Assembly (NCBI GenBank): GCA_029964075.1
Contig: CM057135.1
Coordinates: 29,439,366 to 29,503,365 of the forward strand
Direction: 5' to 3'
Origin: Patiria pectinifera
Lineage: Eukaryota > Echinodermata > Asteroidea > Valvatida > Asterinidae
Length of the DNA: 64,000 nt
Part shown: piece after piece, positions 20,101 through 40,954 of the stretch
Position numbering within the stretch: position 1 is the stretch's first letter
Layout: the number at the start of each line of letters is the position of its first letter
Notes under the pieces: model-generated
Seen by the model: the letters and a program-made list of their open reading frames with translations, nothing else
Told to the model about the DNA's origin: nothing
The model's database searches: none
Translations under genes and position numbers: made by a program

Positions 20101-23100
20101 GCCCAGTCACTCAAAATACCAAAGTAACATTGGGAGATTAAAATGCTAATTACCCCACCAAGTGATATCCAATATGAAGTTGAAACTTGTTGGTTGTTGC
20201 TTATGCTGCAACCATTTACTCTGGCTTTTAAGTAGTTTTCATTTTTTTTTTTTATGTTAATTGTATCTTTTATGTAACAGGAGGAATACTATCACCTCTT
20301 GGCTGAAAAGATTTACAAGATCCAGAAGGAGTTGGAGGAGAAGCGACAGAAGCGGATGCAGGAGACAGGAGGTACCAACGCTGCTGGAGGAGGTGGCATC
20401 CCAACAACAGCAGCGGCAGCACTGGCCCAGCTACAACCTCCTCAGCCACTGACTCAGCCCAGATTGCCCACACAGAGTACGTCACTTTTACAATTGCCTC
20501 ATTTAGATCAGGATTCCAGATTTGTAGGGTATTAAACTGTTGCACGCAAAAGTGTTTGGGTAATTAAACAGTTTGTGGTTTCTCTGAAGATCTGAGTTTA
20601 TTTTTTTTATCTCTTTCCGTAGATGGTCCGATGAGCGTTGCTCCAGCCACCCCGGCCCCACCCTCTGTCGGCCCCAACTCAGTCCCCCAGATGTTGACTC
20701 CCCCCTCCAGCATGGCCCCCGCCAGCCAGCTCACCAACCAGCTCACCAACCAGATCACTCAGAACCCCTTCACCCAATTCCCCCCGCTGCCCACCACGGC
20801 CAACAACAACGGCAACAAGCAGCCCCCGTCCAATCTGGGCATGCAGGTACTGACCCCGCAATCACAACAGCCGCAGCAGCAGCAGCCTTCGATGCCAGCT
20901 ACGCCACAGTCGCAGGCAAGCCAAGTTGGCAAACAGGTATGAACCAGCTCTGTTGTATTCTACAACCCTTTGATCTTTAATCATTGTGGATACACTTACA
21001 TTTCAGTTCCTGGAAATAGTATTGCTGGATGATGTATTTTTGGAAAATGAGTAAGTTTTAGTGCATTTATATCAGTGTGAGATACGAGGTTTAGAACGAC
21101 ACATGAATAATTCAACTCTTGTATAATAAAAAAAAAAATGTTCTCATTTTCTTTGCAGGGGATCATAGGCAGTGCTAACTCCACCCCTCCAACGCAGACG
21201 GTGGGTGTGAACTTGCCGCAACCCAATGCCATGGCCCCCAACACCACTACTGATTCTGCGCTGGCAGAGGCAAATCAACAGGTGAGGATTCCAACATAGC
21301 TCTGCTAAGTTCAGGAGATTGGTACAGATACCCTACCTTCCAAACGAATCTCCTGATGATTTGTTGTTTATGAGTGGCTCAAAAGGCAAATCTCATGAAG
21401 CTCCTTAACACAAACATTTTCTAAGCACAGAAAATATAGGCTCAGCAGAAGCAGGTAACCAGCCAAAATTCCATGTAATGTTTACTGCCCGTGACTGGTA
21501 ATCGGTAGATTTGTGCTTAAAGCATAATTTTACTAAGCGCTGTTTTCTGCTGAACAGATATTTTAAGGTGGGTCCGGGTCTCCACACCCTAGCCACTGTT
21601 GTAAGTGGGGAAAGTTTCTTCAAATTTCTGAGAAGACTTTGGTCTTGGGAGAAGCCTGTCACACCAATGTTGCATGTTTGATTCCAAACAGGTTCAGCCA
21701 GCCACCATTGGCAAGCAGCCACCTTCCACCGAGCAGACTGCCCAGCCCTCCTCTGAGACCACCACACCCGCCGCCACGCCCCAGCCCAAGCAGGAGCCAG
21801 CCCTGACCCCCAAGGGAGGCAAGCAGACCCCGGCAGGGCCATCCAGCTTGGAATCGGGAGTCAAACAGGAACCCGGCGACAACGGCAACCTATTCACCTG
21901 CGGTTTCAACAGCGCGGCCCCCTCCCAGCCGGACGGCATGAGCGGAGTTGGGAAAGGCAGTGGCAAGGGCTCTGGCAAGGCTGGTAATGGCAAGGCCGGT
22001 AACGGCAAGGCTGGTAACGGCAAGGTTTTGATAAAGCAGGAACCAGGCGAGAACCAGGACGTAGTGGTGAAGTCAGAACCGGGCCAATCGGCCAGTTCAC
22101 AGGTGCAGCAGAAGCAGCCTGTCAAGACTGAGCCAACTAAAGCCCCTAGGTCAAAGAAAGGTAATTAGCCTTTACTATATACAAGTAATTTACTTTTGAG
22201 TCTTTTGTAACACAGCACAGTCTTTTGCATCAAGACGATCTCTTGCAACAACTCAATAAAATGTACTTTTGAAAGTTGGCTTTTCGTTTTGTCTCATGAA
22301 AACAACTCCTTTTGTGCGTCCGGGCCAATTTTCATGAGGTAGGCAATACCGCATTTCTATGTCTTTTTTTGGTCAACCGACTTTAAATTGCAAAATATTC
22401 AAGGAGGTTTAGTTAACATAAACCCTGTCTGATGTTTTTTCCCACTTGCAATAGTTTTCAAGCCGGATGAGCTTCGGCAAGCCTTGATGCCAACCCTGGA
22501 GAAGCTTTACCGTCAGAATCCGGAGTCCCTTCCCTTCCAGCAGCCGGTGGATCCCAAGACCTTGCAAATACCGGTTTGTGCTGATCCCTGTTTTGTTCTT
22601 TGTCCTCAGTTGTTCTGAGAAAAAGCTCAGCTACCCATGCCTTGAGAAGATACCTTGTGCCTGTTGTGATATTAAAAATGGAAAACTTTTAATTTGGCAG
22701 TTAATATGAGTACTTTGCTCCCTTTTCCTCTTTTTTTCCGATACAAACTGTGTGACTGATATGAGTTTTTGTAGTTTGTGATGACTAACAGCCTATCATT
22801 TCCACATCTTTTTCCTGCCTGGTTAGCAGCCAGTGGTGTGAGTCTGCATGCTGGAATGGTTCTGTCACATTTTTCTTTCTGTAAAATTAGGATCTTGCTT
22901 TTTGACACCGCGGTAGTCTTGCTCAACCAAATTCGGCAGTGCCCAAAACGCTACTGATAAAAGGTGTTTTTTTCGCCATGCTTCAAAAGATAAAATGCCA
23001 GCACTTGTCTTTGTTTTTGTCAACTACCACTCAGCCTAAGAACTCCCCCGTCAACGGAACTCGAGCCAAGAAACCCAACCCCAAACCCTGTGAGGTATGT

Positions 23101-26100
23101 CTTTTCCCCCTACAAGTTTTTTTTTTTTGGCTGTCGCCACCACCGACACCACCAACCCCTTCCTCGGCTGGACTGGGACGCGCTGGTCTTGAGCTGCGCT
23201 CGGACGAGTTCCGTTCACGAGAAAGCTGTCAGTGTTGTAGTATTCGTCTTGCATGTTGCTAGAAGCTTGTGTGCTTGTGCTTAGCTTGGTACTAGACTCG
23301 CTAACAGGGTTGTGTGTGTAATGGGAATAACTAATGGACAAGTATTGTGATGTATCAGGTTGTTTAGTACTGGTTGGCAATGAATTCCGTTAACCTCAAA
23401 ACTAAAAACGGAATAGTTTTGTGATCTATTGCTTGTGAGTACACAAAATATAATCTGTTTTGTAACTTATCACTCATAAAAGCTATATTTGATAGCCATT
23501 CAAATATAGTATAGCATTCACAACCAATTCATCACAGTGGTTGTCAAAGGTGAAACATTGCACACACTTCCCTTCAACTAACAAGAGCAAAAAAGAAACA
23601 GCCAAAAATATTCATCTATTTTGCGGTATTTTTTCTGTTGAATTTTACTCCTCCAGGACTACTTTGACATCGTGAGGCAGCCCATGGACCTGTCCACCAT
23701 CAAGCACAAGCTGGACACCGGGGTGTACCAGAACCCCTGGCAGTATGTGGACGATGTCTGGCTGATGCTGGAGAATGCCTGGCTGTACAACCGTAAGACG
23801 TCCCGCGTCTACAAGTACTGCTCCAAGCTCGCGGAGGTATTTGAGACTGAGATTGACCCTGTCATGCAGATGCTGGGGTACTGCTGTGGCCACAAGGTAG
23901 GCATCCAAGCACTCTATCTTACCCCCACCCTTAAGCCCCACCCTTCTCAATGTCTTGATTTTTTTAGGGGATAAGGGAACTGTAATTCTTCCTCTGAAAA
24001 CAAGTGCTAGTTTGAATGATTCTGACAGCAGTATTGTTTTACCGCTTCCCTGTTTGCAGTTTGTTTTCCACCCGCAAGTGTTGTGCTGTTATGGCAAGCA
24101 GCTCTGTACCATCCCGCGTGACGCTGCGTATTGGAGCTATCAGAACAGGTAAGAATTCAAAATGCAAAATCATTTTTATGCTCGGAAGCGAGCATAACAA
24201 TAGTAGGTTTTTGTTGGGGGGGGGGCGATTTTAGTCTAGTTTGAGGAGCAAATGGCAAAATGAAAAGTTGTCAGGGGAAAAAAGTTTCAATATTTAATTT
24301 CTGTGGAACACTGATTTTCATGATATATTTTCATCATTACTCCAAGAAAATTTGGTCGGAGAAGAATGATCCTCATGAGTATGTTTGTGATTTCCTTTTT
24401 CTAGGTATCACTTTTGTGAGAAATGCTTCAATGAGATCGAGGGTGACTCAGTGACATTGGGAGATGACCCAACGCAGTCACAGACGTAAGTAGACTCGCT
24501 TGTCTTGAACGTAATTTCGCAGGTAATTTTCACGTCTGTTGAAGATACTAGATCAGGGCTTCACCCTTCTAACACTCTTCTGTCAAAAAATGACAAACTA
24601 ATCTGAATGACTTTTCCTACCTTTTCAGTCCCGTACTGTGGATATCCCATTAAAGTCTTGCACCCAGGATACCCCAGGTTATAGGGTTACACACACATAA
24701 ATGAACCCGAAACCCAGTCTGTTCTAAGAAGATGTCGTCGTGAACATTAATGAATGTGGTCTGTCTAAATGGGCTAACTGTACACATTATGAAATGAGGC
24801 AACATTGAACTTATTATGACCCATTCGTCCCTGTACTGCCCCAAAGCGCCCTGCCGGTTGCTTCCTATAACGCCCCGAACCGCCCAACACTCTGGGGTTT
24901 TTTTTTATTCATCAAGGATTAAATACAGTGTAGTACAATGTATCACAAGTTCTAATGGGTTTAATGACGAACTTTTATCACGATTTTATGTGCACTACTT
25001 TTTGTCAAACTCGAAACATAACTAGTGCTACTAACCCCCCATTAGTTTATGTACATACCTAATGGTACAAAACCCAGTTAGTTTTGTAATTGTTGGGTTA
25101 ATCAGAAATCTATTACTTGCTCAAACGTATGCCAGTATACTTCATGAACTACGTGTGAATTTGACACTAGTAATATATCGGCATTGTTGGATTCACTGCT
25201 GGGTTCTGAAAATGTGTTTCATAGAATCTTTCAGTAGTTTCGTAAAATTAGGGCTGTGTATTGGAACTGGGTACCCGAGTACTCTGCCTTTCATGTCAGG
25301 AATCGGTTCCAGATTATGGGATCGGGTACACGTAGCCGACTTTACAAATTACTTTAATAGTAACTTCTCAGACAATGAAAAAGAGAGGTTGTGAATGTCA
25401 TGTGTGGATAATTTTCAAAATGAAAGCCAGGCTACGTGGGAAAAACAAAAGAGATATCACGTTTATGACTCTCGTGAAAATTCCACTTTTCACCTTTTCA
25501 GCTAAAGACCTCACTGTTCACACTTGTATCTTGCTGCATTGATGTGGCAGTATCAATGTACGGAACTTTATGAAAAATCTGAACAGCAACTTCTGAGATA
25601 TGAATTTTGGGGTTAGGCTTCTTTAACAAGTTCCCGGGTACCTGTTTGGTTTTTTTTTTGGTTTTTTTGTGGTTTTTTTTCGTTTTGGTACCCAGTTCCC
25701 ATATTATCTGTAAATGCACACCCCTATCGTAAATGCAAGCAGGCTGCACATGATTGATAGATTTACAGATGCGCCAACATTCCCAGCATACTTTGGTTTT
25801 CTCAGGAAATGCCCCCTTGTTGGCCATACCAAGGAATACATATTCCTAGATAAGCTAAAAACACCTTTGTGAAGAAATTTGTCTTTGCGAGAGATTGGAT
25901 GGCATAGTAAAGTGTGAGCACTGACTGGCTTACTTGTCGGAAGTAATAGATTTCTGGTAACGCTTAACTGTTTGCACTTACTCCAATAGGTTCTGGTGGA
26001 CTGGCAATGAAACAAGGTTCAACCATTCTAAGCAACTGGAAAGGTAAACACAGTGGGTCACTAGGTTGAATGCCTCTCAAACATAGAAGGGGATGCCATC

Positions 26101-29100
26101 TGATGAACAACCTCAATACAAACACACATTGACAACAAGCTTCCTAACAACAAAGCAGCGGAGCTGTGGATCAAACGCCAAAATTAAAATCCAGAACACT
26201 CACGCCCCCTAATCCCATATCGTAACATTGAAATTTTGTTGTTTGTTTTGAAAAGGTTTTTTTTTGATAACTAACACAATATGCACACAGTGGTCATTTC
26301 ATTGAAGTCCACTTTAATACAACTTGTGTCCTGCCATGACTCTTTGAATTGAAATGATCATATTTTGTTGGTGTAACACACCTTCCCTTTCTACAAAATT
26401 GAATTGTGAACATGTTTAATATCCCAAGTTTGCAGTTTATTTGAATCATTTGCTTGTGATGTTTCCTTTGCAGTACTATCAAAAAGGAGAACTTTGTGAA
26501 AATGAAGAACGATACCCTGGACATTGAACCGTGAGTTTGGCTCGTTGCCTTTTATCATTTGGTGCTGAATAAAGTCGAAAATATTAAAAAAGAAACTTAA
26601 TACATTGAACCGTGTAGAACTACAAACCATTCCTAAGCTGATCGAAACAAACCAGAATATGCCCCCCAATCAAAATAAAAAAGAAATTGCTGTAAGGCAT
26701 TTCAATTAGCTTTTTCTTTTATTGTTAATCACAAGTCAAAAAATTATTTCAAGTGACAATGCCAAATAGAAGGTTCTGAGTTCATCAGCACAGCTCAACA
26801 GGTTTATTAGTTATGATGGAGCAGAAAGAAATCAAAGGTACATCAAAGTGGTCATGAGACAATTTTGTCTGAAGATCAAAATTTGAATAATACTACTGTC
26901 TGTTACAAATAAGGGGAGAAAGTAAAATTAAACAAGATGTAACTCTACATTTTTACTCCGAGGTACCCAGAGGTAAACCGTTAAACCTCCAGGTAAACCT
27001 CCAGGTAAACCTCCAGGTAAACCTCCAGGTAAACCTCCAGGTAAACCTCCAGGTAAACCTCAAGTTACTGCCTATTTAATTTCGCATTCTTCCCTCATTA
27101 AAATGCACACCGAGAGAAGAAGGCTTTTTGAAGATTTTCAAAATGCTGAAAGGATGTTAAATTGTAATCATAAATTCTTTCAAAACTTTTACGATATAAG
27201 AAAAATACCCAATAATTTTGATATGGAACAAAACCAGTTAATAAAATCAATCATGTTAACTTCCTTTTAACAACAGGTTTGTAGACTGCTTAGAATGTGG
27301 GAGGAAACTCCACGTGATATGTGTCCTGCACAATGAGGTCATCTGGCCTGAAGGGTAAGCACAAATTCACTGTTTAAACCTACCTGAAAGTCTACAGGTT
27401 CCTTCCAAAGGACATGCTGAATTTGGTACTCTCATTTCATTAATCTGTGAATGACTAACATTTTGTCTGACGTGACTATTATTTCTCCTTACCTCCCTTC
27501 AGCTTCATCTGCGACGGTTGCAGAAAGTCCAAAGGCATCAAGAAGAAGGAGAACAAGTGTAACGCTAAGAGTGAGTAACATATTAAAGCCAGGAATATTT
27601 GCTTCAGCATGTTAAAAAAAAAACACCGGGATTGGTCACATGAAGCAGTCATGTGATGTGTTCAATTAACAGTTCAAACAAAAGATCTACCATTGACAGT
27701 CTTAACTTTTCGATATGGAGTCAGTGTGTGTGTCCATCATTGTCAAATATTGTGTAAACAATAACTCTCTGTTTCTCTAAACACTACAGAAATGTATAAT
27801 TATGAATTGTTACTGATGTTAATTCAAAATTGCTGCATAAAACCTGTCAGAGCATTATTTTCCAGCATCCCTCAAAAAAAAAATGCTATATGTACAATGG
27901 AATTGAAAGTTTATGGTGGAAATACTGCATTTTTTTGCTTGTCTGTCGTCAAACAGAACTGCCGTCATCGAAGCTATGCACCCACTTAGAGAGCCGAGTG
28001 AACAAGTTCCTGAAGTGTCGCAATACGGGAGCTGGGGAGGTAACCATCCGGGTGCTAGCCAGCTCTGAGAAGACGGTGGAAGTCAAATCAGGCATGAGAA
28101 ATCGGTAAGGGACTTGTGAATTGCGAGGGGGGGAGGGCTGTTCACATTTTGTGCTAACTGTTGAACGGTCTTTTTGTGGTGTACTCATGAGAACCAAGTA
28201 AAAAGCACTTTACGTTTCACTGATGTCTGTGACTGTCTGTGATTTTCTGTCTGTGTCCTTTCTGTGATTGTCTCTGATTGTCTTTGAATGTCACTGCTTG
28301 TTGTTTAATCGTTTTTGCATTTTTAAAATTTCCCTGCAAGGTTTGGAGATGACCTACCGGAAACATTTCCCTACCGGGCGAAGGCACTGTTTGCCTTTGA
28401 AGAGATTGACGGGACGGACGTGTGCTTCTTTGGCATGCATGTCCAGGAGTACGGCTCGGAGTGTCTCAGGCCAAATCAGAGGTATGAGAAATACTAGCCC
28501 AGGGTGTTTTTTTTTTGAAAGGAAAAATTGTCTCAAGCAGTTTCAGCTTTACTGAAAAAAATTCCGGAAAAGCCTCTTTCATCATCATTTTTTGTTTCTT
28601 TGTTTTCTTTTTGTACTGCTTTCTCAAATCCTTTGCATTTTGTACACAGTTTTGAGTGCTATTTTCCCTTGTATTATCTGATGACATGCCTAAAAGAGCC
28701 ATTTATGTTGATGCTTAAATGCTTAAAGCAGATATTTTCTCTTCTTCCTTTTATTTTCAGGCGTGTGTATATATCGTATTTAGACAGTGTTCACTTCTTC
28801 CAACCCCGTGCTTACCGAACAGCAGTATACCATGAAATCCTCATCGGCTACCTTGATTATTGCAAGTTATTAGGGTAAGTGAGATTTTGTTGCTTTCTAT
28901 TTTCATCAAACTCCAGACTTGGAGTGGATCTGCTTGTTGCATTCAAAGACTTAAGGCCAGAAGACCTTTTACTGGTGTGTGTCCTCAGTTTTGTTAAATG
29001 GAATGCCGATGCCTCCTTTATTCAGGTATGAATGGGCCCACATCTGGGCGTGTCCCCCGAGCGAAGGGGATGACTACATCTTTCACTGTCATCCCCCGGA

Positions 29101-32100
29101 GCAGAAGATCCCTAAGCCAAAGAGACTGCAGGACTGGTACCGTAAGATGTTGGACAAGTCTGTGACGGACAAGGTCGTTGTGGACTTCAAGGTTAGATAT
29201 GGACGCCCCATACCCCATGCCATGCTTGCTATATGTTTCCCTGTCCCACGTTAGTGTGCCCGGGTCCTTAAAGCATTTCCCCTACGTTATCTTGAGGCAT
29301 CACTAATCATTCTTTACAATGTTAAGAATCTTTTTGCTCTTGAAAAACTTCTTCAGTGAAATCAAAAGACTATTCTAAACAAGTTCTGAAATGAAGTGGA
29401 TCTTTTAGTAGGAATAGTGCTAAAAATCCCAAAATTTGCCGCCTGATTTTACAGACGATGCTCAGTTTCTTCCTGAATTTTAAAGCGCTCTTTGGAGCTA
29501 ACAGATTTGCTCAGCCTTAAAGACCTTTCCAACTTGGTTCTCTGCTTACCAATATTATGCAATATTTTTAGTATGAAATGGATTTTTGGTGTAACTGTCA
29601 AATAGGGAAGTGTCATTAACACACCCTTTATTTCAACCAGAGTTTCTTTTTTCCTAGGATCACAATGTTTCATATTAATTTGTTTGAATTGTTCAGGACA
29701 TCCTGAAGTCGGCAATGGACGACGGCATCACCTGCGCGACCGAGCTGCCGTACTTTGAAGGCGACTTCTGGCCCAACGTTCTGGAAGAGAGCATCAAGGA
29801 ACTGGACCAGGAGGAAGAAGAGCGACAGAAGGCAGCGGAGAAGGCCGCCGCGGCCAGCGCAGGGGAAGAGGTTAGACAGCTTGAACGTATTCCACGTATA
29901 GATTGTTTCTGGGTTGTCATACCAATGTAAAGAGGAGTGGACTGTGTTCATGGAAAGTAGATAGTGTTTGTGACCACTCGGGGAAGCCATGTTGGGGTGC
30001 GGAACATTGCATGAGCGAGCGCTGGTTCTGGCGCATAATTTATTATTAACCCTAACTCCCTGGTATACTTTACCAGGTACCATATTCATCCTGGCAAATT
30101 GCAACCCCATATATGGGAAACTGCACACACAGATTTCTGACTTTGATTCTGGAGGTGTGCCCAACCCAATTTAAAAGACTGTCAGTTTAGGGGTGCTGTA
30201 CCCATCCCGACAGATTCCAACAAAACGTTGGGCTTTGATGGGTTGGGGAGGTTAGGGTTAATGAACACAAACCCATATCGTCGTTATGTGAATGCTTGGT
30301 GTATTGGCAATGCGTTTGTGTCCCTCCTTATTTTCTCTTTATTACTGAGTCTTGAACCTTTGTATGGAATCTATGGAATTTAAACAGTATAAGGGTGGAT
30401 TGGATAGAATTCATTTGTCTCTGTTTTTGTTTTCCTTTCTAATGCAGTCTGTACCGATCGGCAGCAAGAAGTCCCAGAAGAAGTGCAAGAAGAACAACAA
30501 GAGCAAAAGCAGCAGCAACCGCAAGAATAACAAGAAGACTAACTTCCCCCAGCAAGGCAACGACCTGTCCCAGAAGATCTTCTCCACGATGGAGAAGCAC
30601 AAAGAGGTGAGCCATCGCTCAGCCCGGAGATAGTCTGAACAGCATTACCCCCTCATTGTTTAGTGCGGTCAAGTTGCCACAGAGTAAAGACTTAGGAAGT
30701 TTGGCACTGGGAGCCAGGAAATTCTTAGCAAACCTCACGTACACGTATTTGCTTAAATCCACTCCTCAATGTAATCTCTGTTTTACGTTCCAAAATTCAT
30801 GTCCTCCTTGTTACCTTTCATCAATTGACGCTGAAATCTTTTTGCCCTACAGGTGTTCTTTGTCATCCGTCTGGTGCCCAACCCCGGCCAGAACCAGGAA
30901 CCCATCCAGGACCCGGACCCCTTGGTGTCCTGCGACTTGATGGATGGCCGGGACGCCTTCCTGACCTTGGCAAGGGAGAAGCACTATGAGTTTTCCTCAC
31001 TGCGACGGGCCAAGTACTCCACCATGTGCATGCTGTGTGAGCTGCACAACCAGGGACAGGACCGCTTTGTCTACACCTGCAATGAGTGCAAGCACCACGT
31101 GGAGACAAGATATCACTGCACCGTCTGTGAGGTAAGTGCCACCAATTTTCTTTTATAATTCAAGGGGTTTTTTTTTCAGGCAAGGAGATATTTTAAGTGA
31201 AGTTTTTTTAACAAAACTTGGAAAGTAACTTCCGAATTGCCGTTGTAAACTTGACTTGTTATGATTGTTTTGGGACATTGACACGTATTCTTTTCATTAT
31301 TTTCCACAACAGGACTATGACTTGTGCAGTAACTGCTACCGGAAGATTGGTCACAATCACAAGATGGAGAAATGGGGACTGGAACTGGACGTGGACTCCA
31401 ACAGCGGTGCGTCGCGCAACCCACAGGAAGCCCGTCGCCTGTCCATTCAACGCTGCATCCAGAGTCTGGTCCATGCTTGCCAGTGCCGAGACGCCAACTG
31501 CCGCCTGCCCAGCTGCCAGAAGATGAAGCGGGTGGTGCAGCACACCAAGGTCTGCAAGCGCAAGACCAACGGGGAGTGCCCCATTTGCAAGCAGCTCATC
31601 GCCCTCTGCTGCTACCATGCCAAGCACTGCCAGGAGCAGAAATGCCTGGTGCCATTCTGCCTGAACATCAAACACAAACTCAAGCAGCAGCAGCTGCAGC
31701 ACAGGCTGCAGCAGGCACAACTGCTGCGCCGACGCATGGCTACCATGCAGAGGGTGACTGCCCCAAACCAAGCCATGAACCCACAGGCTTCCACCACCGG
31801 TGCCAATCCCATACAACATGGTGCACGACCTCAGCAGGCCACAGGAGTGGCACCCCAGCAGCAAGGGGGTATGAAACCTCAGAACAATGCCATTGGCCCA
31901 CCACCAGCTGCAATACAGGCGGCTAAGCAAGTACAAGAGGCCGCAGCCAAGGTGGCCCTAACAAATCCCCAAATGGTGCCCCAACAGCAGCAGCCACAAA
32001 GGACTGTCTCGCCCTCACAGGGCCAAGGGAGGGGCATGAAGCCCATATCATTACCTAACCAACTGGGCCAGGTGAATCCAATGCCGCCACCACAGCAGAT

Positions 32101-33454
32101 CAGCCACTTGCCCAAGTCGCTCTCCATGCCCAATCCGGGGGCCTCTGCCGGCCAGATGATGTCTCCCATGGACCCGTGGAACCAGACCCAACCACAGACT
32201 GTGCCTGTCAATGTGACAAGTATGCATGGCATGCAGAACATTCCCAATGTGCCAAATATTCAGAACATTGCAGGAGGCGTGGGCATGAACATGTCAGGCA
32301 ACGTAGGAGTTGTGCAACAACAGCAGCTGAGCCCTGGTGGCATTGGCCAGCAGGGTCCAGTCCGTGCCAACAGCTTCCCACCTCAGGCGCTCCAGCAACT
32401 GCTGCAGACGCTCAAGTCACCGCAATCGCAGCAGCAACAGAAGCAGGTTTTGAACATACTCAAGTCCAACCCTTCGCTAATGGCAGCATTAATCAAGCAG
32501 CGTTCACAGCTGCAACAGCAGCAACAAGAAGCACAGGCCCAGCAGCAGCAACAACAGTAGCAGCAACAGCAGCAACAACAGCAGCAACAACCTGGGCAAC
32601 AGCAGGCAGTTCAGCAAGCCGGCAACCCGCAACAGGTATTCAATCAACAGCAGCAGCAGTGGCTGCAAATCCAGCACAGACGGTGGCTGGCTAGACAATT
32701 CCAACAGCAGCAGCAGCAACAGCAGGTCCAGCAACAGCAGGTCCAGCAACCATTCCAGCAGCCTCAGATGCATGGCAACCTTCCACCTTTCAACCAGGCT
32801 ATTGCCTTGCAGCAGCAGCAGCGGCGGAATGCAATGGCCCAGCAGGGAGCAGGCTCACAGCTCCTGCCGCAGCAAATGCAGCAACTTCAACAGCAGCAGC
32901 ACCTCCAGCAGCTGCAACAGCAACAACTGCAACAGCAGCAGCTGCAGCTGCAGCAGCAACAACAGCAGCAGCAACAAAATCAGGGTGACCCCATGGCGAG
33001 CATGCAGTACCAAAAGCTGCTCCTGCAGAAGCAGCAGCAGCAGCAGATGCTTGCAAACCAGAACCAGACAGGAGTTCAGCAGCAAGGCATGTTGCCTAAC
33101 CAGTCACCGCAGCATGTTATGCAGCAGGTGCGTTCACCGCAAACAGCCAACACCCTGGTGCAGGTGCGATCGCCCAATCCTAACCCCTCACCGAGGCCTC
33201 AGCCCACCCCGTCCCCCAGAACGCACTCTGCCCAGCCATCACCCAGGCCCATGCAGCAGATAAACTCCCCACACCCTGGCAAGCCTGAACCTATGCAGAC
33301 GGACCAGCCAATGCTGTCACAGAACCCACTACAGCATGGGACCATGGCACAAATGAACAGTCCTGCCAATGCTGCTACGTTAAACCAAGACGATTCAGAC
33401 ATGACCCCCTTGGATCCCCAGGACCAACTGACAAGATACGTGGAAACCTTGTAA
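11119..33454 (+). CDS. CREBBP: CREB-binding protein / p300 histone acetyltransferase, whole gene
   Basis: This nuclear coactivator acetylates histones and transcription factors and bridges CREB and many other activators to chromatin. I traced 27 coding exons, all with GT/AG borders and matching phases. They total 7,281 nt, or 2,426 residues plus stop; human CBP is about 2,442. Approximate domains are TAZ1 451-540, KIX 648-730, bromodomain 1080-1190, PHD/RING region 1196-1370, HAT about 1370-1700, ZZ 1697-1745, TAZ2 1754-1842 and NCBD 2071-2110, followed by a Gln-rich tail. It appears to be the single ancestor-like copy of the vertebrate pair. Oddities are an in-frame TAG at 32558-32560 within polyQ (reading to TAG gives 2,128 residues), a candidate extra exon at 23035-23094, and a duplicated fragment of exons 11-12 at 61.9-62.8 kb. 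The first ATG matches the family N-terminus. Confidence 0.97.
12431..12854. repeat. Four dispersed copies of a 24-bp motif in CBP intron 1
   Basis: The motif ttttgacgaagtgacgaat occurs near 12431-12453 and 12618-12642. Diverged copies lie near 12713-12735 (ttttgatgaagtaacgaat) and 12831-12854 (ttttaacgaagtgacgaat), all in the same orientation. An inverted partial copy (cgtttcgtcactt) follows the second. Spacing is irregular (about 187, 95 and 118 bp), so this is not a simple tandem array. Confidence 0.75.
13162..13383. mobile_element. Small inverted-repeat element, 222 bp
   Basis: The sequence aggtctctctcaaa at 13162-13175 is matched by its complement at 13370-13383. The interior has a CRE-like tgacgtca and no open frame of note. 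The target duplication is unclear. Confidence 0.5.
13596..13756. mobile_element. Mariner-like MITE, 161 bp
   Basis: There is a perfect 18-bp inverted repeat, ctatccggttcgtaagtg at 13596-13613 with its complement at 13739-13756. Reading the ends as tccggttcg leaves TA on both sides, which fits a Tc1/mariner-type TA target duplication. It has no coding capacity. Confidence 0.75.
14366..14586. mobile_element. Small element with TTAA-type ends, copy A
   Basis: The left end ttaatcctaacctccc (14366-14381) and right end gggagttggggttaa (14572-14586) are diverged inverted repeats. A second element with closely related ends lies at 30046-30261 in another CBP intron. The bodies are only weakly alike. 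The family is unassigned. Confidence 0.5.
14881..16165. mobile_element. hAT-like non-autonomous element, 1.3 kb
   Basis: There are perfect 16-bp inverted repeats, cagtgttctagccagg at 14881-14896 and the complement at 16150-16165. CAG-type ends suggest hAT, although no clear 8-bp flanking duplication is visible. The body has a tandem pair of cacgtaccccgtacgatacc (near 15092-15131), a GC-rich patch near 15475-15505, and no intact transposase. Positions 16021-16072 repeat the internal module of the 6754-7055 element. Confidence 0.75.
16521..17215 (+). CDS. CREBBP: CBP exon 2, N-terminal low-complexity region
   Basis: The acceptor is cattttacag. Phase-1 entry completes a Glu codon, and the exon ends in phase 0 at aag/gtaaat. 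It begins [13 protein letters not shown], which takes the place of the vertebrate nuclear-receptor-box region. It continues as a Ser/Asn/Thr/Pro-rich segment including [15 protein letters not shown], close to the KHKQLSELL motif of vertebrate CBP. LTKLL fits the LxxLL receptor-binding pattern. Confidence 0.92.
17367..17852 (+). CDS. CREBBP: CBP exon 3, Asn/Gly/Met-rich linker
   Basis: This is a phase 0 to phase 0 exon of 162 codons between ttgattacag and a gtaagc donor. It codes for a disordered stretch with repeated NLAGNLP and NMAGNMA-type motifs. Its length is a multiple of three, so skipping it would keep the frame. Confidence 0.88.
18285..18881 (+). CDS. CREBBP: CBP exons 4-5, TAZ1 zinc domain
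   Basis: Exons 18285-18546 and 18774-18881 are joined in phase 1 through a split Val codon, at the same place as in vertebrate CBP. They encode the TAZ1 fold, with [49 protein letters not shown] and [11 protein letters not shown] supplying the three HCCC zinc sites. TAZ1 binds activators such as HIF-1alpha and CITED2 in vertebrates. Intron 4 is 227 bp with a good polypyrimidine tract. Confidence 0.96.
19223..19381 (+). CDS. CREBBP: CBP exon 6
   Basis: This is a phase 1 to phase 1 exon with acceptor cttcaagcag and donor gtaagt. It encodes the linker after TAZ1, including [16 protein letters not shown], which matches the vertebrate SMQRAYAALGLPY segment. That match fixes the frame and start. 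Confidence 0.94.
19538..20476 (+). CDS. CREBBP: CBP exons 7-9, KIX domain
   Basis: Exons are 19538-19754, 19956-20073 and 20281-20476. They encode the KIX domain that binds phosphorylated CREB and MYB. Visible sequence includes [47 protein letters not shown] and [20 protein letters not shown]. The tyrosines that contact the pSer of CREB (in AYARK and in EEYYHLL) are kept. The usual GWHEHVTQD is here PWQQFVTQD, a change at the first helix. Confidence 0.96.
20623..22160 (+). CDS. CREBBP: CBP exons 10-12, Pro/Gln-rich linker
   Basis: Exons are 20623-20936, 21159-21281 and 21692-22160. They encode the disordered region between KIX and the bromodomain. Exon 12 carries VKQEPG, IKQEPG and VKSEP, which resemble SUMO-acceptor motifs (psi-K-x-E) of the kind that repress p300 in vertebrates. 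It also has a 15-bp minisatellite at 21974-22025 coding repeated GKAGN. A genomic copy of exons 11 and most of 12, with the intron between, lies at 61860-62752. Confidence 0.93.
21974..22025 (+). repeat. 15-bp coding minisatellite in CBP exon 12
   Basis: Three units of ggcaaggctggtaac with one or two changes (21974-21988, 21989-22003, 22004-22018), plus a partial fourth, code for GKAGN repeats. The homology with the duplicated fragment at 62743-62752 stops inside the first unit, so a duplication breakpoint lies here. Confidence 0.85.
22455..23896 (+). CDS. CREBBP: CBP exons 13-14, bromodomain
   Basis: Exons 22455-22573 and 23657-23896 are joined in phase 0 between IP and DYFDIV. They encode the acetyl-lysine-binding bromodomain: [18 protein letters not shown] (helix Z), LPFQQPVDP (LPF shelf of the ZA loop), [32 protein letters not shown] (with the conserved binding Asn) and the C-terminal helix to GYCCGHK. 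The 1.1-kb intron between them holds the candidate cassette at 23035-23094. Confidence 0.97.
23035..23094 (+). CDS. CREBBP: Candidate 60-nt cassette exon in the CBP bromodomain
   Basis: A pyrimidine-rich tract and tcag acceptor (23031-23034) precede 60 nt with no stop, followed by a strong gag/gtatgt donor. The exon is phase 0 at both ends, exactly as needed between exons 13 and 14. It would add 20 residues, [20 protein letters not shown]. They would sit in the ZA loop just after the LPF shelf, a place where I recall no insertion in vertebrate or fly CBP. It is coding-like in composition against an AT-rich intron. It may be an alternative exon or a pseudo-exon. Confidence 0.45.
24060..27570 (+). 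CDS. CREBBP: CBP exons 15-19, RING/PHD region
   Basis: Exons are 24060-24148, 24405-24485, 26474-26530, 27277-27354 and 27503-27570. They encode [31 protein letters not shown], the [20 protein letters not shown] linker, and the PHD finger [20 protein letters not shown]...GFICDGC. Cysteines and histidines are in place for the interrupted RING and PHD zinc sites that regulate the HAT. Intron 16 (24486-26473, about 2 kb) carries a small inverted-repeat element, and intron 17 carries a 12-bp tandem array. Confidence 0.95.
25249..25727. mobile_element. Probable small DNA transposon in CBP intron 16
   Basis: The left part has ggaactgggtaccc near 25263-25276. The right part has ggtacccagttccc at 25687-25700, followed by tgcacacccctat (25715-25727), which partly mirrors agggctgtgta at 25250-25260. 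The interior has a T/G-rich homopolymer stretch near 25645-25685. Ends of the form TAGGGGTGTGCA are common in animal hAT elements, but the boundaries here are imperfect. Confidence 0.45.
26971..27062 (+). repeat. 12-bp tandem array with donor-like motifs
   Basis: Six units of aggtaaacctcc run from 26991 to 27062, after a degenerate unit at 26971-26990. Each unit contains CAGGTAAAC, a good match to the 5' splice-site consensus. The array lies in CBP intron 17, about 210 bp before exon 18. Confidence 0.9.
27957..29870 (+). CDS. CREBBP: CBP exons 20-24, catalytic HAT core
   Basis: Exons are 27957-28104, 28341-28481, 28761-28874, 29026-29191 and 29697-29870. They encode the acetyltransferase fold with [104 protein letters not shown] and [20 protein letters not shown]. 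The Trp-Tyr pair in LQDWYRKM (catalytic Tyr1467 of p300), the Asp of YLDSVHFF and the Trp of HIWACPP are all kept. The exon 22-23 junction reads LLGYEWAHIW, while vertebrates have LGYVTGHIW. Confidence 0.97.
30046..30261. mobile_element. Small element with TTAA-type ends, copy B
   Basis: The sequence ttaaccctaactccc (30046-30060) and the near-complementary gggaggttagggttaa (30246-30261) bound a 216-bp segment in CBP intron 24. The ends are related to those at 14366-14586. No coding capacity is visible. Confidence 0.5.
30448..31131 (+). CDS. CREBBP: CBP exons 25-26, autoinhibitory loop, HAT end and start of ZZ
   Basis: Exons are 30448-30606 and 30853-31131, both phase 0. Exon 25 is rich in Lys, Asn and Ser and corresponds to the HAT autoinhibitory loop that is autoacetylated in p300. 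It ends [16 protein letters not shown]. Exon 26 completes the HAT with [16 protein letters not shown] and [16 protein letters not shown]. It then begins the ZZ domain with [19 protein letters not shown]. Confidence 0.96.
31313..33454 (+). CDS. CREBBP: CBP exon 27: ZZ end, TAZ2, NCBD and Gln-rich tail
   Basis: This large last exon starts after tttccacaacag with [11 protein letters not shown] (ZZ). TAZ2 follows ([18 protein letters not shown] through CCYHAKHC and [10 protein letters not shown]), binding p53, E1A-type ligands and others. The NCBD ([35 protein letters not shown]) comes later. Then comes a long CAG/CAA-coded Gln tract and a Pro/Ser-rich end, finishing LTRYVETL at TAA 33452-33454. 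The end resembles the vertebrate terminus LEKFVEGL. A single in-frame TAG at 32558-32560 interrupts polyQ, and the frame stays open for 297 further codons. Confidence 0.95.
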
Positions 33455-34557
33455 TATAGCCATTTTTTTTAAATAAAAGAATACCATTGACGTTAAGTGA
33501 CCCGACTGCTCTACAATATCACAGAACGGCCACTATGCAATCTAGTGGTATAGCTTCATTAGTGTGGTTTTTTTTTTTTTTCAGAACAAATTCAACTGAA
33601 TTTTTGAAAAAGTCTGTAAAGTTTTATTGTTATTTTACTTTGTATTTTCTTCTCCATTCCTACTTTTGGATGATATTCTTAGGTTTGTAATAAATATTAA
33701 ATACAAAAAAAATTAATAATATAAAAACTTCTAAATACAAGTATATGCCTAGTACATAGGACTCGTCGTCGGTTGTAGATGTCGGGTTGTGTGCTGGACT
33801 AGGAAGCAATTATTTGTACAGAAATTTCCCGGAGGGGCAATTATTAAATATGTTGACTATGTAGTAGTTCAGATGTGAAAATGAGAGAGGAGCCTAGTTT
33901 ATCAAGGAAAAAAATATACAGTTTGTTCATTTGTTTAATATCTTCCTACGTCTTAATGTGCTGTAAGATTTTAGCTAATATGTAGACGTAGACTTGTCTC
34001 TTCTCCCTATTTTTAATAAAAAGCAACGACAAAAAAAATTACAGTGCTAGTACGGTATTAACTATGAAATGTTTGTGTGTCAGGTGTTTCTTTTATCCCC
34101 TGCGGCGTAGATAGTTGAATAATTTAATTGAATGATCATGCAGGTTCTGACATTAAAACTATATATGGTATGAATGACAAATCCTACGATGAAATCTTTG
34201 TACAAAGACGAGACAAGAGAGGGGCACACATGCTAATTTCCTACTTATATATCGTATTGCGTAAAAAGAAAAGATACAGAGGACGTAACTCGAATGAATG
34301 TGTGCACTTGACAGATTTGGAAGATTTTTACTTGTCACTTTCTGGTTTTTATCTCCATTGAGCTATTTGTATTAAATGTATATAAGATACAGTAAAATAA
34401 AACATGGACTGTGGAAGTTAACCATTTTGCAGCCTCGACCTGAGATACAATTTGTTTTTGTGTGTGTTATTGTTGATATTGTAACCTCATAGAAACTGTA
34501 CAGTTATTATTCCCTTCCCGGCTCATATACTAGTTACTTTTTCCTGTACAAAATAAA
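33455..34557 (+). terminator. CBP 3' UTR with polyadenylation signals
   Basis: This AT-rich sequence after the stop codon has several AATAAA hexamers (near 33471, 33689, 34014, 34395 and 34552-34557). The last, aaaataaag, is followed by a T/G-rich stretch and is a reasonable distal polyadenylation signal. No coding exon is visible. Confidence 0.5.
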
Positions 34558-34889
34558 GAACAGTTATATCGGAGTATTATTCATCTATTGTGGCTTTCAG
34601 ATTTGGAAATTTCCGCTGGGCAGTTTTGAAGCTTACAGCACAACACTAAATACATGTACATGTTTTATGTACGTTGTAGGTGTTAAACAGTGTTCTTATT
34701 CCTTACGATGTGATACAATATTTTCCAGCATTGTGATAAAGAGAAACCTGTGCATAATTGTACAGTATGTCCCCAAAAAATGTCCGTCTGACTGTTTTTA
34801 AAATAACTACAAAACCATGAAGTCAATTTTGAAAATGTTTGGTTTTGCAGATACATGTACTTCCAAGCCTTGGCCTCAACCCCTATGGG

Positions 34890-35276
34890 TTTCATTAATT
34901 TCAGTCACTCATCGCTGCACAGTTGTCAATTCAGCACTACAACATTTTTGGACACTGTGACCTAGTTCCATTCCTTAGTCAATATTAGTGCTGTGTTATG
35001 TAAGCTGTGTAAAATCCTGCGTTTTGAAAAAAATAAGGCTGATGTGGTTTGGGATTGGAATCATTTGCCCTTGAGCATTAAACTGAGGTCTTGCCATGAT
35101 GACTGATAGCCAGGCAAATGATTCCAATCCCAACTGCACCCCTTTTCACAACATGAAGGATTTTACACAGCTTACTTAACACAATACTGAAATTGAATAA
35201 GGCAAAGAACTTGGTCACAGTGTCCAACAATGTTGTGATCAACAGTTGTGCAGTCATGCGTTACTGAAATTAAATG
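34890..35276. repeat. Fold-back element with about 150-bp arms
   Basis: The left arm includes gacactgtgacc, gctgtgtaaaatcct and gggattggaatcatttgcc. The right arm carries their complements in reverse order (ggcaaatgattccaatccc, aggattttacacagc, ggtcacagtgtcc). The arms diverge by scattered changes and indels, and the centre is near 35075. It is a non-coding fold-back transposon or inverted duplication. Confidence 0.8.
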
Positions 35277-35397
35277 ACACTAACTGATAGAGTTACGCCT
35301 GTCGTGTTGCAGAAAATGTAGGGGGAAACGTCTCTGGTTCACGATTTTAATTGGGTAGGTGTTGACCAACTGTTGTGCAAGAAATTCCGAATGCAAG

Positions 35398-35645
35398 CAT
35401 GGGCGTCGCGAGGGGGGCGGGGGGCAAGGGGGGCACTTGCCCCCCCCCCCCCTGGAAAGGAAAAAAAAAAAAAAAAAAAGAGGCGCGAAGACAAAGTGGT
35501 GTAAATTTAATGAGTGGGAGGGGGGCAAAATGTCCCTGCCCCCCTTTAAAACTGATAAATCGAGAATGTGTTGAGAAATACAAACATTTTTTGGCAAAAC
35601 AAATTTTTTGCCCCCCTCTAGAAAATTTTTTTGGCGACGCCCATG
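35398..35645. mobile_element. MITE with catgggcgtcgc ends
   Basis: The inverted ends are catgggcgtcgc at 35398-35409 and the complement at 35634-35645. The sequence atgcaag flanks both sides (35391-35397 and 35649-35655), separated from the right end by 3 nt. The body of about 250 bp is mostly G, C and A runs. It is probably hAT-type. Open frames in it on both strands are low-complexity artefacts. Confidence 0.7.
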
Positions 35646-35655
35646 ATTATGCAAG

Positions 35656-36746
35656 TTTGTCGCACACCAGTCGCAAATCCTGGTTCCGGATTGGTCGAAG
35701 TATCAGTCACGTGCCATCACCACACACTTTCCAGTTCAGCAAATTGGGGACAAAGCAGGAACATACATTTTTATTGTGCTAGTCATGCACATCAAAACGA
35801 CAGCGGGGAAAAATGTTTTGTACGTCTGCCAAGGGCTATACATAATGCTATTTTACCGCGAACTGATCCTCAGATTTCCAAATGGAAAAGCCCGCTTTTA
35901 TTTTGAACACTTTGTATTTCCTTGTGTTGCGCAATAGGGATTTTCCATCATACCGATTGGATATCATCACAACTAGAAAAACAAATGCAGCGTAAATACT
36001 CCCATAAACGTATGTAAATGACAAATAAGTCGGAGCTCTGACGCCATAATATTCAACTTAACCAAGTTTCAACAATTTATGGTATTGGTGGTAGAAGGTA
36101 GTAGCAAATCGGAGCCAAGTTTGCGAGCATTTGATTTTCAAGACCCTTTCCCTTGGATGGACCTGTCACAGTAGTCCAAAGTGGGCACGGACGTAAACCG
36201 CGCACGTTTACGTGTGTATAAAAATACAAAAACAATGTACAGTGGAACACCTTTTTAACAAGGTACTTTACAAATTACCTTGTTATAACATGTACAGGTG
36301 CCTTGTATAATGGAAAACAGAGAACAATACAGACTTAAGGGACCTGCAGTTTTCCTTATTACAAAAGCAGGATGGAAATATTAGTGCCTTTCTTTGGGCT
36401 CGACTGTATGCACTTTTCAAACTATTTTCTGGACAGATTTTATTCAATTAACACCCTTACACATGCAAAGTATTGTTTATGGAGCCTCACCAGTGCCATT
36501 GAGTGTAAAATGCCTATTCATAGAGTTTCAGATGTTTTCTGTAAACCCCGAGTTCGCGGAACTTGGCACCCATAGTGTTCGTGTGAATGGCAGGGACTTT
36601 CCAACATTGTGTAAGACACATCGTTTTTATACAAAACATACTGGCTCTTTTCCTTTCGGTGCAAACGAACAAAATATTACGAGACGGCAACCTCATATCT
36701 CCGTAGAACGGTCTACACGTACCTACAAGCTTAATATTCATCGGTC
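35656..36746. other. Intergenic DNA before the 7TM gene
   Basis: I see no convincing gene, RNA or clear repeat here. The open frames are short and lack conserved features. The sequence just before 36747 may contain the promoter and 5' UTR of the following gene, but no recognisable core promoter motif stands out. Confidence 0.4.
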
Positions 36747-38374
36747 ATGGAGAAAGGCCCGTTATCGGTGCGGACCTGTCTGTGTATCTTGGGGCTTCTG
36801 CCCGGTCCCCGATCTAAGACGATTGCAGGTCGGTGCGCAAGCCTCTGGAATCGATGTTGGCGCCGAGATATACATGTATACGATTCGATGGAAGATGAGG
36901 AAATGAGTAAGTGAACCAAATGTTTGAGGCAAAGGTTCAACGGGGGATGTGGGTTACACGTAGGCCTACTTCCACAGTTTTTTTTTCTTATCAACGAGTA
37001 CTGGCATGGTAGGCCTACCTCATTTTATTTTGAACTGCATTGCTGCGACCAAGGAAATTCACACTTGGTACAAAATGTACTCGATTTTAACCCAATCATC
37101 AACCCTCCATCGAGATGCCTTAAAACTATATGGCTAGTCATCCGTAATCAACAATTACAAGCATGATATGGACAAGCAACAACCCCCTCCTCCGAGATAG
37201 CCGAAACGAGCGACGCCCTTGTGCCCCTCCTAACTCCATCCTCTCCTTAATCTGACTGGGTTTTTTTGTCATTTTTTTTTTAACAACAGGTTATGGCATC
37301 GTTTCTTTTCTGGCTCTTACATCAATCGTGTTGCTTCACTTCGTAGACCTCGCCATCATATGCGTGGATTTTGTGGGCAAGCAGAAGGACACTGTCTTCG
37401 TCCTTTCCTACTTGACGTACCTCCCTCACCTGACCATGACACTCTTGTTCTGTCTTGGAATGAGACTGTATCTGTCTTGCGTGTACGACCCAAACAGAGA
37501 TCGCCTGGCCGTGTTTTCTATAGACTACCTAAAGGCGCGCTCCGAGTACAGCCCCGGTAGCCTGTGGTTGCGCTTGGCCGTGTTCATGGCTCTACCCATG
37601 GTCTGCATTGTCATGAAGTTCTTGGTGTTCTTCAAGGAGTCCGGTAGTGCCTACTGCCCCCGGGATGCCTTCGTTTACATCAGGACCATAGGGGGCGTGG
37701 CCGGGTACGCCCTGTACGGCATCTTCTGCTTCGTGATCCACAGCCTCCAGATGTCGCATCGCGAAGAGTTTCACGTCGACGCGGTCAAGATCAGCCGGCG
37801 AGCTGCGTCTGAGATCGAGACCACCAAGAGCGACATACGAAAGCTATGCTTCGGCTTCCGGAGCTTTCGCGATTTCGTCGGGGCCTGGCTGTTACTGTCC
37901 TTCTCCCTGGCGGTCTTGGGCGTGTTCTTCATGATCCCGTACACAATGGACACACTGCCGGAGATCAGAAAGCACTTGAAGGGAGAGGAGTCCAACTTAC
38001 TGCTGTGGACCGTCTTCACGTGGTGCGACAAGATCCTCTTTCTTGCGGGTCCCCTGCTGGCAGTCTGGGGGTTGAACGTCGGGCTTCCTTGGCGCATCTT
38101 CAGAGACAGCATCCTCCAGGCGTGGGACCGGCATGGGGCCGAATACACCGAGGACGGCAAGGATGAAAGAGCAGACAGAGCGGACAGCAAGACGCTGGAT
38201 GAGATCATCACACACATCAGTCTCCTGAAAGACGGTGGGTCCTGGATCAAGTCAACTCTCATCTTCTCTATCATCAGCGTCTACCTGGGGACCACGCTGG
38301 ACCCTTCCCAAGACTTGGACCCTTGGATCGGTTTAGCTTGCAGACCATATTTCAATGACACCGATCCGCATTAA
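36747..38374 (+). CDS. Seven-helix membrane protein, gustatory-receptor-like
   Basis: Two exons (36747-36906 and 37290-38374) join in phase 1 (ATG A / GT TAT) and encode 414 residues. The ATG has a good context and an in-frame stop 15 nt upstream. Predicted helices are at about 56-79, 88-115, 146-168, 184-206, 250-270, 291-315 and 373-392, with a charged loop of about 45 residues between helices 4 and 5. The N-terminus RTCLCILGLLPG recalls the LLGLLPF-type start of insect gustatory receptors. Length, seven helices and an early phase-1 intron also fit gustatory-receptor-like proteins reported from invertebrate deuterostomes. The family's helix-7 TYhhhhhQF motif is only weakly echoed (SVYLGTTLD), so the family call is tentative. 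If right, it would be a chemosensory or developmental channel-like receptor. Confidence 0.75.
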
Positions 38375-38641
38375 ACTCCTGTTCGTCTCCGGGCCTGCTA
38401 TGAGACGCCCCATGCAACCCGAATACATACCCTTTCGTGAGTTTTTTTTTTAATCGTTGGTTTGTCGAAATACAAAAGTTTTTCGCTTTCGAAACACAAA
38501 ACGAACGAAAACGATCGTTGGCTGCGTTAAAAGTGGAGTAAAAAAAAATCCAGTTAGCGCAAGGTAGACTAGTTCCCACCTCCAATTTTGGGACCGGCGG
38601 AACCAGTGTGATCGCACGCGAACCCGTTGTGTTCAAATGCA

Positions 38642-38647
38642 AATAAA
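38642..38647 (+). terminator. Candidate polyadenylation signal of the 7TM gene
   Basis: AATAAA lies about 270 nt after the stop codon at 38372-38374. It is a plausible 3' end, with no downstream transcript evidence available. Confidence 0.35.
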
Positions 38648-40005
38648 AGAGGGTATACCAGACACCCTAAAACAAATAGTGTTTTCGTTAAAACTATATA
38701 CATACGAGTTAAAATATCGAACTGTTGAAGAGTAGGGGGCCTATATGGACACATAGTGAACCAAGTGGAGATTCATAAGAGACTGGACTGGGCGGGGCTC
38801 CCTTAAAAGCGGGACCAAGGGGGGGGGGGGAGACGTTAAGCGTCAAAGCAAGGGATGGATATCAACGGGAGATACAGACATGCTGTTCACCTTGTATTTG
38901 GATTCAAAAATTTAACTAGTGTATGGACTATTTGAATCGAGTTGAAGTACTTGTAGTCACGTAAACCAACGGCATAATAGAGAAGAATAATTCATTGAGG
39001 TAATAATTTTAGTTCATGCAAAATAACACATTTGATAACTGTAAAAATTATTGGTATGTGTAGGCCCATAGTGTTTTGCATGTTTGTTAACTTTTATAGA
39101 CATTGACATTCTTTCTTGTTTGTATGTTTTTACAATTGATTTCATTTGTTTTGTTTCTTCAAAAGCGTTCCCAAGTGGGGATTAAGCATACATGTATGTT
39201 TAGTCATATCGAATGATAACAGGGTAAAAAAAAGTTTTTTAAACCAATTTAACAGCTATATATACACACACAGAAAAAAGCTTTTAAATTTTAGCATAGT
39301 TACTTCTGCAAGTGCAAGTTTCGACAGCTTGCATTATGTCATGACACTGATCTAAATTGTACCGAGGTTAAAGGGAATGTACAGAAATAAATGGATTTCG
39401 AGGATTAGTATTTTATAGAAAATATTGTTAAACTGACTTGCTTCTCGTTTTGGGTTTGGAGATGCTGGAAAATCCAAGAAAAATACCAGCTGAGCTGTTA
39501 AATGCATAAAGCGCCCTCTATCTTAACGAACGGCGAGGGGCCCCCTTTTATTTTGATTGCGCACGATCGCACGTGCACCGTACAATATCTGCGCTTTCTT
39601 GGAATATAACATCGTCAAGACTGGAATAATTGCTGGTAAGGCTTTAAGAGAAAGGATGTTGCAACCTGACGCTGCTTTTTTCTTTATCATCCCAATGAAG
39701 ATCGTTCATAGCAAAAATGGTGAGACATAAATCGGTGTTTATGAGAAACAGGAAAGAAAATCTCTTGACTCTGCATAGACTTTATACACAACTGCTGAAG
39801 TAGCATCAGGTTGCACCATTATTTCCCTCCATATAGTATATGGATGTCAGTCATTGCAAAAATGTTTAAAAGACTGAGACATTTCTAATTTTATTAGAAA
39901 ATTAGGAAATGTTAGGATGTTCTTTGACGCGTACACAGGGCTGCCAACTTTGAGTATAAGAGCTGAGATAGCCCCATAAATGTGGCCAACTACCTCGGTA
40001 AATAC
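38648..40005. other. Intergenic, old repeat remnants
   Basis: No gene is visible. The stretch 39635-39920 is loosely similar to 13915-14110 in CBP intron 1; both have cctgacgc, then a T-rich run, atc-rich text, gagaaac and tagactttrtacac. This suggests an old dispersed repeat. A G-run lies at 38817-38830. Confidence 0.4.
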
Positions 40006-40376
40006 GCCACACTTCCACCATGTAGAAAAACATGTTGAACTTTGTCAAATTGTGATTTTCACATTTAGCCTTAGTTTGTAGCTTATTTTTGCTTTAGAAG
40101 CATACACACCCTCTTGATAGGCTAATCAGAAAGTGCTGCCTTTTTCAGATGTCTATTTTTCGTGAAATTTTCAGATTCGTTTGCACACGTTTGCGTATCA
40201 AAATGTCAACATGAAATTTCACGAAAATTAGATATCCGAAAAAGGCAGCACTTTCCGATTAGCCTGTTAAGAGAATGAGTATGCTTCTAAAGCAAAATAA
40301 ACTACAAACTAAGCCTAAATGTGAAATCAAAATTTGACAAAGTTCAACGTGTTTTTGTACATGGTGGAAGTGTGGC
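40006..40376. repeat. Fold-back element, 371 bp
   Basis: The outer ends are gccacacttccaccatg (40006) and its complement ending at 40376. The arms of about 165 bp continue through gttgaactttgtcaaat, ggctaatc and aaagtgctgcctttttc, and meet near 40185. Arm identity is high, so it would form a long hairpin if transcribed. Confidence 0.85.
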
Positions 40377-40954
40377 CATTCATGTTGTGCCAGGTAATAA
40401 AAATCAATCTGTTTATAGGGTGCACAGACCTAATTCAAGCGAGAATTTCTACGCCAGCTGATTAGCATAAAAAGTGCCCCCACAATTTCTTTTGAAAACG
40501 GAGACCGTTTGGCTTTAAAAACGGTGGAATTGTTTAAATATACCCAAGGATCAACTCCCTGGTTTTGGGGCTTCCATCTGAGGGAAGGCTTGATAAAATC
40601 ACGGACGAAAAAATGGGTTCTATTTGCCTGTGAAAGTGGAAGGGTGCCACTCTTAAAATGGCTACATGCAGGCTCGGGAACTATCACTTTTCGGCAGGTG
40701 ATTTTATTTGGGTGTGAATATTTAAAAAAAAAATGTAATTGGCTACGGTACGTAAAATTGAAAAGAAATGAAAAGATGAAAGACAAGACAATAGTTAAAT
40801 TTTTGTTTCAGAAACCCCAGTGATGTTGGCTTGCATGTTACTTGGCCCTGAACTTTGACCCTATATATTTCAAAATGGCGGCCTCTAGTTCTCATGCGGG
40901 CGGGGGACTTGAATACAGTTTTTTTGTGTTTACGTTCGTCGTAGAAGTCGATAG

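Follow-up and report, generated by a model that had tools for sequence, protein, structure and literature searches.

Does a TAG codon standing in frame in the last exon of a CBP gene mark a stop that is read through, a real shortening of the protein, or damage acquired from the surroundings of the gene? The question is raised by the stretch of 64,000 nucleotides from Patiria pectinifera analysed here (the window; C7:29439366-29503365, in a genome of 613.5 Mb on 1020 contigs), whose CBP gene carries such a codon at 32558-32560; positions are those of the window unless another scale is named. CBP is normally a strongly conserved coactivator. In the window, the TAG is one of ten substitutions that form a short block of divergence from a second CBP copy lying downstream, and we think it rather likely that the stop came with a block that was left or put there when CBP copies exchanged sequence, or when the assembler switched from one copy to another.

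The stop codon and the frame around it

The original prediction took the gene for CBP, and TAZ1, KIX, a bromodomain-HAT-ZZ-TAZ2 core and NCBD were indeed found in this order (Table 1). The core, 784 residues from stitched exons, aligns over its full length to the human CBP and p300 structures with small gaps only, and 582 of its 771 aligned residues are identical to those of human CBP; the bromodomain, HAT and ZZ were assigned by this alignment to solved CBP/p300 and not by a Pfam scan. Only exons supported by homology were used, because the gene-model script produced small exons that were spurious and a 5' end that could not be relied on (2714 letters if the stop is read through). Twenty-one such exon segments were translated and contain no stop, the region holding the TAG (32521-33100) lying outside this set.

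The TAG stands in the reading frame of the last CBP exon and falls in a glutamine tract, 12 codons past the end of the NCBD (32521). The frame is uninterrupted from 31265 to 32557 and, downstream of the TAG, runs on for 297 sense codons (32561-33451) that terminate in LTRYVETL, followed by a TAA at 33452-33454. The last 115 residues of this tail score 127 against what we take to be the human CBP C-terminal sequence, while the maximum among shuffles (n=2000) is 92, and a structure search with the tail found no solved relative (one match, E 0.18). A CBP/p300 C-terminus is present in the same frame behind the TAG, and the gene lacks an intact full-length CBP frame because of the codon at 32558. 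On all these points, namely a stop inside the polyglutamine tract, an exon otherwise open and the true C-terminus beyond it, the earlier reading stands. CAR codons (R, A or G) account for 187 of the 714 codons in 31313-33454 and for 110 of the 297 in the tail, which makes the tail a large target for nonsense mutation.

Read literally, the mRNA of the window would encode a CBP with intact HAT and TAZ2, a changed NCBD and a stop 12 codons later. Exon-junction-dependent mRNA decay is not expected for a stop in a last exon, and since the TAG sits there, it is not expected for this mRNA.

Other CBP copies on C7

The last-exon protein, searched against the same genome, has 11 matches, every one of them within 29.47-29.69 Mb of C7. 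DNA searches with the last exon agree, their CBP-like matches being on C7 while the other listed matches look like CAG-repeat similarity; one genome-wide DNA search scored 40 of 226 candidates, so its match list is a lower bound. The CBP region on C7 comprises the gene of the window, a second copy without the 5' half (copy 2) and inverted fragments; copy 2 and the fragments are located beyond the window, and we place them by cluster coordinates (C7 position minus 29439365). Within what the last-exon searches and 264 kb of sequence covered, the gene of the window is the only CBP copy found here with all the domain exons.

Copy 2 lies on the same strand at C7:29503828-29542924 (cluster 64463-103559) and extends from the bromodomain exons past the 3' end of the gene, its last exon being 63 kb downstream of that of the window. 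With its 5' half missing, deletions in TAZ2 and an insertion of about 12 kb within the last exon, this copy looks broken. The insertion (cluster 82603-94509) contains long open frames, which we take to resemble reverse transcriptase and endonuclease.

The pieces on the minus strand, between 107 and 254 kb of the cluster (C7:29546k-29694k), comprise KIX, the bromodomain start, ZZ-TAZ2, NCBD and TAZ1. Units made of bromodomain start, ZZ and TAZ2 recur in this inverted array, together with KIX units. The TAZ2 of fragment f117 is open and has a ratio of nonsynonymous to synonymous divergence (dN/dS) of 0.29 against the window (synonymous divergence, dS, 0.21); fragment f170 is also open, with nine nonsynonymous changes to one synonymous.

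A divergent block around the stop codon

Compared with copy 2, the window carries ten substitutions within 212 bp (4.7%), the TAG among them, between two flanks that are nearly identical in the two copies. The left flank has no difference in 420 positions, and the right flank has no substitution in 769, its length differing by one CAG repeat unit, so that divergence changes sharply at the edges of the block. Outside these flanks the two copies differ at 14 of 626 positions in 31397-32053 (2.24%) and at 277 of 7229 upstream (3.83%), and on the other side at 61 of 5237 in 33455-38734 (1.16%) and 54 of 1641 past 38734 (3.29%). All ten changes fell together within 213 bp of a 1471-bp stretch in none of 200000 random draws (bound 3e-7), although the limits of the stretch were set after inspecting the data. 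A two-state segmentation of the divergence yielded many tiny segments and was left out of the argument.

From copy 2 to the window, eight codons are altered: Q to S, F to L, A to E, A to A (silent), Q to stop, T to I, Q to H and Q to W. The block contains two doublets of adjacent changed bases, and nine of its ten substitutions alter an amino acid or create the stop; in the core exons, 18 changes are nonsynonymous and 16 synonymous (Fisher p 0.06). By this measure, the block looks free of protein-level constraint.

Fragment f246 has the state of copy 2 at all ten sites, against the window, and reads CAG at the TAG codon. Fragment f212 covers five of the sites and has the state of the window at two of them only, which are both bases of the Q-to-S doublet. 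Among the copies that cover them, eight of the ten changes are private to the window, and a genome-wide pattern search allowing at most three mismatches gave four places, with zero mismatches in the window alone. The single C-to-T change originally offered for the TAG is adequate at the codon itself, where copy 2 and f246 have CAG, but the change is not isolated, being one of the ten in 32474-32685.

The altered NCBD

Eight solved NCBDs were matched, and the five of them that were shown have NPQLMAAFIKQR at the altered stretch, and the window differs from them, with S and L in place of Q and F. One study describes Phe2100 as the single Phe, which is buried and packed in the same manner in two ancestral NCBDs that were reconstructed, with packing of the same kind in the free human NCBD (PMC8967867). 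The F-to-L change of the window falls on this buried Phe2100. A protein ending at the TAG had been predicted to keep HAT, TAZ2 and NCBD; the first two are intact, but the NCBD is altered by these two replacements.

A reciprocal mosaic

The gene of the window and copy 2 differ at 36 listed nonsynonymous codons, of which 26, upstream of 31620, were polarised by references: the window has the CBP/p300 residue at 18 and copy 2 at 2, which leaves 6 without a decision. In the block, where the reference-polarised counts are tiny, the canonical residue is in the window at 0 and in copy 2 at 3; the contrast between the two regions gives a Fisher value of 0.0056, or 0.026 without the TAG. The remaining ten codon differences comprise 31868, 31949 and 32051, which were left out, and seven in the block, from which three (the two NCBD codons and the TAG) were entered by hand, the other four having no score. 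For the TAG codon, Q was taken as canonical on the strength of copy 2 and f246 and not of human CBP. These counts leave aside codons with gaps, twelve of which are in the last exon, and the exon at 24405-24485, to which nothing in copy 2 aligns.

Origin of the stop codon

The explanation that we favour is that a block with background-level paralogue divergence came to lie inside a tract otherwise identical to copy 2. This could have happened by gene conversion or recombination between CBP copies, within the animal or among its haplotypes; alternatively, the assembler may have switched between near-identical copies. We consider a biological and an assembly origin about equally probable. A single exchange, or a single switch by the assembler within the 420 bp without differences, would account for both sides of the mosaic: the window gene, intact upstream, has its damage in the block, whereas copy 2, damaged upstream, has a clean block. 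Simple conversion in one direction, from copy 2, would not account for it, since the block would then still be expected in copy 2. The Q-to-S doublet common to f212 and the window suggests sequence sharing among the copies. From these comparisons we infer that the TAG, a copy-specific defect, is probably recent and that exchange is its likely cause. The class of cause is an ordinary one: a copy-specific stop, an exchange-like block and a gene lying among its own fragments. Polymorphism and an assembly error in the repeat had rightly been listed among the causes before, and to these the present comparison adds the other copies and the mosaic block. A more far-reaching form of the idea is a living CBP reshaped by its own partial copies, in which a real tail-less CBP with an altered NCBD would be accompanied by some KIX and TAZ2 pieces, such as the open TAZ2 of f117, that persist as small expressed competitors for the partners of CBP; we give it a low probability.

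Several observations weigh against exchange or switching as the source of the block. No assembled copy carries the whole block, and f212 shares only two of the five sites that it covers. The non-coding tract downstream has small islands of difference as well, one of them at 35411-35469 with 9 differences in 35 aligned sites, and patchiness as such is not special to the block in this alignment. The core of copy 2 has a dN/dS of 0.29 against the window, below the expectation for a long-dead copy; copy 2 was perhaps constrained until recently, and because of this value it is not clean which of the two was under constraint. Outside the block the window has a doubtful change of its own: at 27977, in the LGxHLE stretch of the HAT region, it reads Cys in place of the Gly found in human CBP, p300 and copy 2. 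Besides the small number of polarised codons in the block, there is the serine doublet: if f212 is of the window lineage, the serine could be an old tolerated change and not an imported one, and if the serine is old, the block may be native sequence that was spared when the flanks were homogenised.

In the strongest alternative, the TAG is an isolated nonsense allele: the gene of the window would carry its own old, diverged haplotype that acquired a late C-to-T change, kept as genetic load or tolerated since only the Gln/Pro tail is lost. The abundance of CAR codons after the TAG (110/297) offers many targets for such a change, the 4.7% of the block is near the background divergence, so that the block may be unconverted native sequence, and the occurrence of the serine doublet in f212 means that part of it may be old. 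Nine nonsynonymous or nonsense changes in ten, two adjacent doublets and an altered buried NCBD residue are, however, unlike a constrained CBP haplotype, and copy 2 and f246 agree against the window at 10 of 10 sites. We regard this account as doubtful, although it keeps a real share of the probability.

A local base-level sequencing or consensus error in the CAG/CAA repeat appears quite unlikely. The repeat is of low complexity and, of the copies that cover them, the window alone has 8 of the 10 changes, as such an error would have it, but the changes are ten clean substitutions, the length differences from copy 2 across 32054-33454 are all in frame, the block begins in the non-repetitive NCBD, and f212 has the doublet too.

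Programmed stop readthrough, with a longer CBP as its product, had been named as a possible cause, and we reject it as very improbable. An open tail with a homologous end and a UAG-CAG context speak for it, and the part of the leaky CAR-YYA context (Y, C or T) claimed earlier fits as far as CAR, but the next codon, CAA, is outside YYA. The stop is not kept between related copies, here copies of one genome, since the two that cover the codon, copy 2 and f246, both read CAG; from 32686 onward the window has no substitutions against copy 2, and this tract cannot show constraint after the stop. A literature search on readthrough in CBP found no report, and among the literature matches on CREBBP last-exon truncation, CBP duplicates, NCBD evolution and gene conversion we noticed nothing specific to the case of the window.

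Removal of the TAG from the message is hardly credible and both of its forms were rejected: splicing within the last exon could draw on donor-like sites in the range of the gene's own donors (3.1-8.2; best 32071/32072, score 6.0), but these all precede the NCBD (31753 to 32292), so that their use would delete it, and from 32354 to the stop no donor-like site exceeds 1.0, while adenosine-to-inosine editing to UGG, for which UAG is a favoured ADAR triplet, meets local RNA folding no stronger than that of shuffles (z -0.33).

Features of the window

Table 1. Coordinates of the CBP gene, the stop codon and the tracts compared with copy 2.
Feature	Position	Strand	Basis
TAZ1 exons	18363..18880 (18363-18545, 18773-18880)	+	domain search
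KIX exons	19699..20358	+	domain search
Stretch duplicated downstream as copy 2, with large insertions there	21977..40380	+	3.83% divergent upstream of 31396
Bromodomain, RING/PHD, HAT and ZZ exons	22455..31131	+	stitched, full-length alignment to human CBP/p300
Last CBP exon: end of ZZ, TAZ2, NCBD, Gln/Pro tail	31313..33454	+	homology
Left flank identical to copy 2	32054..32473	+	alignment, 0/420
NCBD; S and L replace the Q and F of the five solved NCBDs shown	32372..32521	+	alignment
Divergent block, 10 substitutions against copy 2	32474..32685	+	alignment to copy 2
In-frame TAG stop in the CBP glutamine tract	32558..32560	+	frame; CAG in copy 2 and f246
Open tail of 297 codons and TAA, end homologous to CBP C-terminus	32561..33454	+	frame, alignment
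Right flank, one CAG unit of length difference	32686..33454	+	alignment, 0/769 substitutions

Upstream of CBP, an open frame at 1350-3197 contains an adenylate/guanylate cyclase domain (PF00211, E 2.4e-46); human CREBBP adjoins ADCY9, and the arrangement may be an old synteny. The window also contains a 3.2-kb tandem array at 48339-51574, with about 47 copies of a 69-bp unit (90% matches), and one 84-residue open frame that occurs twice (56580-56831, without a Pfam match, and 59365-59616).

Comparison with known systems

Because CBP is normally so conserved, it is unusual to find it amid an array of partial copies and with damage to a block of the only copy in which every domain is present. 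Either a key gene has clearly been affected by exchange with broken copies, or the case warns of false stops that tandem copies, when nearly identical, can bring into an assembly. In both cases, a stop in a CAG tract calls for a comparison of paralogues before readthrough is proposed.

The gene of the window is like CBP/p300 (CREBBP/EP300, KAT3) in its TAZ1, KIX, bromodomain, RING/PHD, HAT, ZZ, TAZ2, NCBD and C-terminus, and differs from them by the in-frame TAG past the NCBD and the Q-to-S and F-to-L changes within it. Genes with conserved stop-codon readthrough occur in animals, and the window is like them in having an open homologous frame after the stop, but unlike them in that the stop is absent from the sister copies covering the codon and there is no evidence of its conservation. 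The third comparison is with gene conversion from non-functional duplicates into functional genes, of which CYP21A2/CYP21A1P is an example. Although the window differs in that no complete donor tract was found in the assembly and assembly switching is possible, it resembles these cases in its short divergent tract, in the several damaging changes that this carries, and in the broken copies that adjoin it.

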